DNA from: an alpha proteobacterium MED-G09 | GTDB lineage: Bacteria > Pseudomonadota > Alphaproteobacteria > MED-G09 | Assembly (NCBI GenBank): GCA_905182015.1 | Contig: CAJIZT010000012.1 | Location: 1 to 48,656, forward strand | Length of the DNA: 48,656 bases | Reading direction: 5' to 3' | Shown here: piece after piece, positions 32,606 to 34,059 of the stretch | Position numbering within the stretch: position 1 is the stretch's first letter | Layout of the letters: the number at the start of each line of letters is the position of its first letter | Notes under the pieces: generated by a model | What the model was told of the DNA's origin: nothing | Databases searched by the model: none | The model's input: the letters and a program-made list of their open reading frames with translations, nothing else | Translations under genes and position numbers: made by a program

Positions 32606-33898
32606 TTATGCTTTATCAAGAGCTTGTGACAAATCAGCTAAAATATCATCTATATGCTCAATACCTATAGAGAGGCGAACATATCCAGGTGTAACACCTG
32701 ACGCTATTTGCTGTTCCTCTGATAGCTGGCTGTGGGTAGTACTTGAAGGATGAATTGCCAAACTTCTAGCATCCCCAATATTTGCAACGTGATAAAGAAG
32801 CTCCAATGAATCAATAAACTTTTTACCTGATTCAACTCCTCCCGATAACTCAAAGCCAACCAGTCCACTGTAACCACCCTTAAGATAGTCATCTGCTCTT
32901 TTTCTTACTTCACCAGTCTGAAGGCCAGGATAAATTACTTTACTAACTTTGTTATGTTTCTCTAAAAATTCTGAAACACTTTGTGCGTTTCTAGAATGTT
33001 CTCTTATTCTTAAAGGCAATGTTTCTAAACCTTGAATAAATTGGAAAGCATTCATTGGACTCATTGCCCCGCCAAGATCTCTTAGAATTGTCGTTCTTGC
33101 CTTAAGAATGTAAGCAATAGGGCCTAGTGGTGCCGCAGCAACAGTGAAGATTGCTCCGTGATATGACGGATCAGGCGTGTTTAGTGCAGGCTGTCTATCA
33201 CCCGCGCCTGCCCAATCAAAATTACCTCCGTCAACAATTAAACCACCAATCGAAGTACCGTGACCTCCAATGTACTTAGTTGATGAATACACAATAACTG
33301 CTGCCCCGTGCTCAAAAGGCTTACACAAAATAGGCGCAGCTGTATTATCAACGATTAGAGGGATGCCAAACTTTCGCCCAATATCAGAGACTTCCTTGAT
33401 AGGAAAAACTTCAAGCTTTGGGTTTGGTAATGTTTCTCCAAAATATGCACGTGTTTTATCATCAGTAGCTTCAGCAAAAGCATTTGGGTCCTTCGGGTCT
33501 ACGAAACGTACCTCTATGCCCATATCTTTAAATACATTGTTTAATTGATTATAAGTGCCACCATAAAGGTCGGTTGATGAAACAATATTATCACCTACCT
33601 TAGCAATATTTTGCAAAGCATAAGCTGTTGCTGTTTGTCCTGACGCCACAGCAAGTGCCGCCGCCCCACCTTCAAGTGCAGCAATTCTTTTCTCTAAAAC
33701 ATCACAAGTAGGATTCATTATTCTGGAATAAATATTACCCAGCTCAGATAATGCAAAAAGATTTGATGCATGCTCTGTTGAATCAAATTGATAGCTTGTT
33801 GTTTGATGAATTGGCACTGCTACTGAATTTGTTGTTGGATCCGATCTCCAACCAGCATGAAGTGCAATAGTTTCTGGATTTTTACTTTCTGTGGTCAT
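32606..33898 (-). CDS. metY: O-acetylhomoserine sulfhydrylase
   Basis: A PLP enzyme that makes homocysteine directly from O-acetylhomoserine and sulfide, the step before methionine. The PLP lysine lies in YSSTKYIGGHGTSIGG. The N-terminus ETIALHAGWRSDPTTNSVAVP and length (430) are typical of MetY, which is longer than MetB/MetC. ATG 33898 has a strong site, GGAG at 33908-33905, that lies within a predicted switchable hairpin. The leader contains a SAM-II riboswitch, so expression should fall when S-adenosylmethionine is plentiful. The enzyme feeds homocysteine to the beta-synthase/gamma-lyase pair at 40309-42864. Confidence 0.95.
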   Translation of the reverse strand: MTTESKNPETIALHAGWRSDPTTNSVAVPIHQTTSYQFDSTEHASNLFALSELGNIYSRIMNPTCDVLEKRIAALEGGAAALAVASGQTATAYALQNIAKVGDNIVSSTDLYGGTYNQLNNVFKDMGIEVRFVDPKDPNAFAEATDDKTRAYFGETLPNPKLEVFPIKEVSDIGRKFGIPLIVDNTAAPILCKPFEHGAAVIVYSSTKYIGGHGTSIGGLIVDGGNFDWAGAGDRQPALNTPDPSYHGAIFTVAAAPLGPIAYILKARTTILRDLGGAMSPMNAFQFIQGLETLPLRIREHSRNAQSVSEFLEKHNKVSKVIYPGLQTGEVRKRADDYLKGGYSGLVGFELSGGVESGKKFIDSLELLYHVANIGDARSLAIHPSSTTHSQLSEEQQIASGVTPGYVRLSIGIEHIDDILADLSQALDKA

Positions 33899-33954
33899 TT
33901 TTATCTCCTTTTTTGCTGAGAGATAAAAAACCCAGATTTATCCGAGTATCTCCC
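33899..33954 (-). promoter_or_regulatory. Expression platform of metY riboswitch (SD-sequestering hairpin)
   Basis: On the minus strand TTTTATCTCT (33928-33919) can pair with GGAGATAAAA (33908-33899): ten pairs with one G-U, loop of ten. This buries the Shine-Dalgarno GGAG. The same TATCTCT segment can instead pair upstream with GGGAGATA (33954-33947), eight pairs, freeing the site. The two are mutually exclusive. Pairings were found by eye without energy calculation. Confidence 0.6.
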
Positions 33955-33960
33955 AGTCAT

Positions 33961-34016
33961 TTTTAGCTATTTTTTTAACGTGGCCGCAAGCCGACTGGCT
34001 CAAATCACCACGCCCT
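33961..34016 (-). promoter_or_regulatory. SAM-II (SAM_alpha) riboswitch aptamer
   Basis: Read on the minus strand, the leader contains CGTGGTGATTTGAG (from 34012), then CGGCTTGCGGCCACGTTAAA and ending in TAGCTAAAA (33961). This is the conserved SAM-II pattern: P1 CGTGG/CCACG, the GATTT loop, CTTGC next to the stem, an A-rich bridge and the 3' GCTAAA that forms the pseudoknot. A small extra hairpin AGCC/GGCT fills the variable loop. It ends about 60 nt before metY. SAM-II occurs mostly in Alphaproteobacteria upstream of methionine genes, which fits. Confidence 0.9.
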
Positions 34017-34059
34017 TTAATTAAGGTAAGGTAAACTTACATTTGTTAATTAGGAAAGT

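Follow-up and report, generated by a model that had tools for sequence, protein, structure and literature searches.

The window analysed here is a 48,656-nucleotide contig (CAJIZT010000012.1, assembly GCA_905182015.1) of the alphaproteobacterium MED-G09, whose genome amounts to 1.35 Mb in 12 contigs. Its minus strand carries metY, and the encoded O-acetylhomoserine aminocarboxypropyltransferase/sulfhydrylase matches TIGR01326 with 604.6 bits (cut-off 495.1) as well as PF01053. A SAM-II aptamer lies upstream of this methionine/SAM pathway gene (Table 1): the RF00521 covariance model is matched over its full length (model positions 1–79) at 66.5 bits, against a gathering score of 36 (E = 7.1e-13, or 4.6e-15 when the organism's own genome was searched). 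An earlier sequence-only reading had proposed a SAM-II riboswitch upstream of metY and had named the Rfam model as a check; both the class of the aptamer and the identity of the gene were borne out. This is the one riboswitch match within the window. The genome holds a single SAM-II match above the cut-off and one weak match on another contig, and its only SAM-V-like match also lies on another contig. A consensus scan found no sigma-70-like promoter upstream of the aptamer.

Table 1. Features of metY and its leader, in window coordinates (RNA-sense sequences, 5' to 3').
Feature	Position	Strand	Elements	Basis
SAM-II riboswitch aptamer (RF00521 SAM_alpha)	33942..34021	minus	full-length	covariance-model match
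P1	33979..34012	minus	CGUGGU 34012-34007 with GCCACG 33984-33979	covariance-model match, alignment
Possible ligand-free hairpin	33989..34000	minus	AGCC-AGUC-GGCU	MFE, consensus fold
P2 pseudoknot	33953..33998	minus	CCAGUC 33998-33993 with GACUGG 33958-33953	pairing, alignment
Anti-sequester helix (ON state)	33916..33956	minus	CUGGGAGAUA 33956-33947 with UAUCUCUCAG 33925-33916, 10 pairs	alignment, folding
Possible antiterminator	33942..33956	minus	CUGGG 33956-33952 with CUCGG 33946-33942	alignment, folding
Terminator-like hairpin	33925..33946	minus	CUCGGA-UAAA-UCUGGG 33946-33931, then UUUUUU 33930-33925	sequence, alignment, folding
RBS-sequestering hairpin (OFF state)	33899..33928	minus	UUUUAUCUCU 33928-33919 with GGAGAUAAAA 33908-33899, 10 pairs	alignment, folding
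Shine-Dalgarno (SD)	33904..33908	minus	GGAGA	sequence
metY	32606..33898	minus	430 aa; start at 33898	TIGR01326, PF01053

The aptamer contains the conserved SAM-II core (GAUUUG, GCUUGC and GCUAAA), together with a P1 stem, the loop of which carries the GAUUUG motif, and the P2 pseudoknot. On these sequence features it is unambiguously an authentic SAM-II riboswitch, for which SAM binding is predicted. A short hairpin inside the P1 loop (AGCC-AGUC-GGCU) could possibly hide the 5' strand of P2 in the ligand-free state; it appears in the minimum free energy (MFE) structures of the four family members examined and has standard pairs in all 14 leaders of the alignment described below. Hairpins of the form AGCC-NNNN-GGCU were also recognised by eye in many, perhaps most, other alphaproteobacterial SAM-II sequences.

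Between the aptamer and the start codon, two mutually exclusive hairpins at the ribosome binding site (RBS) had been proposed, and the pairings were found where they had been placed. One joins an anti-RBS segment to the SD region through ten pairs, all of them standard in 14 of 14 leaders. The other, in which the same segment pairs with an upstream partner, likewise exists and comprises ten pairs (CUGGGAGAUA/UAUCUCUCAG) rather than the eight originally counted. A further contact (ACTGG with CCAGT in the DNA), which had been taken for an additional interaction, turned out to be the P2 pseudoknot that defines the class. The CUGG motif is common to P2 and the anti-sequester helix, and four of the ten pairs of that helix use nucleotides occupied in P2; a SAM-stabilised P2 would therefore remove these four pairs and free the anti-RBS strand (UAUCUCU) to pair with the Shine-Dalgarno sequence, which corresponds to OFF logic. 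Nested inside the anti-sequester helix, between its two arms, is a feature missing from the earlier description: a terminator-like hairpin followed by a U-tract.

We aligned 14 leaders from a single family, spanning two genera; these are all the members of that family with the aptamer, and the whole arrangement is conserved in each of them. P1 shows a compensatory, both-sided change between the genera (C-G in nine relatives, U-A in five), while P2 has standard pairs throughout, with G-U variants at two pairs. The sequestering hairpin is paired in 100% of alignment cells, with three one-sided changes, and the Shine-Dalgarno sequence of the second genus is GGAGG. The ten-pair helix is paired in 96.4% of cells, with one-sided variation at two pairs and a G x G opposition at one pair in the second genus. 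The hairpins are kept in relatives. The sequence-only reading had stated that a lack of compensatory changes in either hairpin would count against it, and in the strict sense they are lacking: among the 14 leaders no both-sided change falls in either RBS hairpin, and such changes are confined to P1 and the inner terminator stem. Because the family is so similar in sequence, this absence carries little weight. RNAalifold, applied to the platform alone, picked the anti-sequester helix with the inner hairpin and added almost no covariation. The alignment is consistent with both RBS hairpins without proving them; the compensatory evidence for them is weak.

Folding of the leader with its start codon gave a probability of 0.974 that the SD is fully open when the 3' strand of P2 is free, and of 0.0002 when that strand is occupied. 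The same computation for the 13 other family members gave 0.47–0.98 and at most 0.002, respectively, and P2 occupancy lowered SD exposure in 14 of 14 members (leader-only construct). When the spacer was shuffled 3000 times, only 2 versions equalled the free/occupied ratio of the native sequence, indicating that the arrangement is more than chance, and dinucleotide shuffles of seven leaders of the same genus reached the switch in 0 of 60 cases each. In the four species examined, the leader adopts the ON structure as its unconstrained MFE. Conversion to the OFF structure costs 10.8–12.3 kcal/mol, and a six-pair P2 hairpin by itself contributes −8.2 to −8.8 kcal/mol; in this model the cost would have to be paid by P2 together with SAM. 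In a series of increasing transcript lengths, the ten-pair helix became the MFE structure once approximately position 33917 had been transcribed, before the SD exists, an order of events that favours ON by default.

These results depend on the length of RNA that is folded. In this species, including 12–40 nucleotides of the open reading frame brought the probability of an open SD with P2 free down to about 0.02 or less, as the 3' half of the terminator can then pair with codons 2–5; with 50 nucleotides it was 0.6. The contrast between free and occupied states was also largely lost in several relatives when 30 nucleotides of the frame were included. With the aptamer left unconstrained, SD exposure was low (0.01–0.5) in most members, since the core sequence AUCGCU pairs weakly with the SD.

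A survey of 82 alphaproteobacterial SAM-II leaders, in which start codons were chosen by rule and may be wrong for some leaders outside the family, placed all 12 of the surveyed family members among the top 14 by P2-dependent SD ratio. Three other leaders with high scores (L158, L006 and L007) were judged unconvincing after folding. In a leader from another alphaproteobacterial family (L005), UUCUCCAGAA, which follows P2 and precedes a terminator, pairs with UUUUCUGGAGG, which holds the SD. The resulting anti-SD/SD helix has the terminator in its loop, and P2 has a computed effect there opposite to the one in the window.

The inner hairpin and its U-tract most likely also form a putative intrinsic terminator. 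The stem and a run of six or seven U residues are kept in 14 of 14 leaders, and the closing pair occurs in all six standard types (A-U, G-C, G-U, U-A, U-G and C-G), and three species show G x G at this position. The remaining 13 members of the family have a stronger hairpin, CCCGG(N)...(N)CCGGG and then U7, whereas two C-to-U changes in the species of the window have produced two G-U pairs; its hairpin energy of about −7.8 kcal/mol is the weakest of the 14, against −11.8 to −19.3 in the relatives. This species may be losing a terminator layer while retaining an RBS layer. A possible antiterminator shares the P2 3' strand and the 5' strand of the terminator, and its five pairs are present in all 14 leaders; all of its columns are constrained by other helices, and its conservation is therefore no independent evidence. 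In all species the antiterminator was computed to be less stable than the terminator, and antitermination would consequently need to be kinetic.

We consider it fairly probable that a single SAM-II aptamer represses metY at high SAM through a nested terminator and RBS switch, with CUGGGAGAUA, on the aptamer's 3' edge, serving as the shared switch element. At low SAM the 3' strand of P2 would be free to pair with the downstream UAUCUCUCAG; the ten-pair helix, with the inner hairpin as its cap, would form once its 3' half had been transcribed, and the SD would stay open. At high SAM, CUGG would be held in P2, and the ten-pair helix would lose four pairs, among them those of its G-C end. UUUUAUCUCU would then pair with GGAGAUAAAA and hide the SD. 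P2 formation would also release the terminator from the five-pair CUGGG/CUCGG antiterminator, such that one aptamer would bring about repression at both transcription and translation, each at high SAM. The analysis shows the elements in the sequence, the extent to which relatives keep them and the computed response to P2 occupancy; that SAM binds here, that the switch runs in this direction in vivo and that the terminator is active are points that we infer. OFF logic acting through the RBS seems to us quite likely; SAM-dependent termination is an even call for the family and a poorer one for this species.

A switch acting on translation alone, in which the inner hairpin and U-tract serve just to cap the anti-sequester helix and to provide the sequestering helix with its 5' arm, and termination is not regulated, appears unlikely, albeit with points in its favour. 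The sequestering helix includes the U-tract as well, which pairs in the OFF hairpin with AAAA beside the SD, and the conservation of the tract thus has a second explanation besides a terminator; moreover, erosion in this species has affected the terminator stem but has left the RBS switch intact. However, the hairpin of the relatives resembles a textbook terminator (CCCGGGUAAACCCGGG plus U7 or CCCGGCAGAUGCCGGG plus U7), and it stands at the position where many other SAM-II leaders have terminator-like hairpins. We regard as improbable the converse possibility, that regulation rests with the terminator alone, the anti-RBS segment having arisen incidentally where a purine-rich SD lies close to a strand rich in pyrimidines. 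Terminators are indeed common in SAM-II leaders, many of which use one for regulation (PMC1273637), and most of the 82 surveyed leaders show no P2-dependent SD switch. Against this, the switch is rare under shuffling, both of the spacer here and of the seven same-genus leaders, and both genera keep, 3' of the U-tract, the ten-pair complement, a segment with no role in a terminator. Finally, the suggestion of the sequence-only reading that aptamer folding would expose the RBS, or that the platform is paradoxical, is very hard to credit: apart from the low default SD exposure obtained with long reading frames nothing supportive was found, P2 occupancy removes anti-sequester pairs and hides the SD rather than freeing it, SAM repression is what would be expected of a methionine-pathway gene, and the apparent paradox is a bookkeeping error, resolved by counting the pseudoknot of the aptamer itself.

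The proposed dual platform can be compared with several known systems. Terminator-type SAM-II riboswitches (Sinorhizobium meliloti metZ, PMC9373788; Agrobacterium metA; RF00521) have the same aptamer, P1, P2 and conserved core, a terminator just after P2, a methionine-pathway gene and OFF logic, whereas the metY leader adds a pair of RBS-directed hairpins and nests its terminator-like hairpin in the anti-sequester helix. In S. meliloti metA, as proposed here, a single SAM-II aptamer hides the SD when bound to SAM and a terminator is present; there, however, the SD is located at the P2 pseudoknot itself, and the separate downstream terminator, between AUG1 and AUG2, is SAM-independent, not being predicted to respond to SAM (PMC9373788). 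The SD of metY is instead ~45 nucleotides past P2, and a separate anti-SD strand would hide it. As is proposed for metY, tandem SAM-II/SAM-V and double SAM-II riboswitches (PMC9481103) place a terminator first and an RBS device second, with the same ligand and coherent repression, but use two aptamers where the metY leader has one. The Bacillus thuringiensis Bc1 c-di-GMP-I riboswitch (PMC11218506) combines one aptamer with a terminator and RBS occlusion involving a poly-U tract, but belongs to a different ligand class and acts incoherently, whereas the metY leader is predicted to be coherent.

A literature search in which subscription journals were thinly covered found no SAM-II leader that combines a single aptamer with a terminator lying inside an anti-sequester helix, nor any work linking a SAM-II riboswitch with an anti-Shine-Dalgarno (other wordings may exist), and we take this as a weak sign of novelty. 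Any novelty is confined to the layout of the platform, which is compact and probably dual; the aptamer and its OFF logic are ordinary. If the proposal is true, a terminator nested within an anti-sequester helix allows one compact aptamer to deliver the bi-mechanism SAM response known from tandem riboswitches. The strong and weak terminators of the two genera would then offer a natural series for a shift from a transcriptional to a translational platform.

Other SAM-riboswitch-like loci were also observed. The weak SAM-II-like aptamer of this genome (31.2 bits, below the cut-off; plus strand, L002:1501-1575, G000:C5:60636-60710) has an intact core (GUGAUUUGA...GCUAAA) and P1, and a P2 of three pairs only. 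It is located directly upstream of a gene for an alkane 1-monooxygenase-like membrane enzyme (PDB 8sbb, E = 2.5e-29; PF00487), an unusual target for a SAM riboswitch, and the next gene encodes an apparent 2Fe-2S ferredoxin. Matches occur in four species of the genus (L002, L117, L118 and L119). A SAM-V-like riboswitch (minus strand, L120:1501-1568, G000:C7:179766-179833; also L206–L215) was found in 17 of 18 genomes of the family, with scores of 33–45 bits, near the cut-off of 41. Its CACUAAAGAGAGG adjoins the start of a gene for an OmpW-family outer-membrane protein, which in most copies is followed by an acyltransferase-like gene whose only Pfam match is to the alpha/beta hydrolases. We presume this second gene to be MetX-like, in which case the element and its neighbours would place a porin-like gene in a putative SAM-controlled methionine operon.
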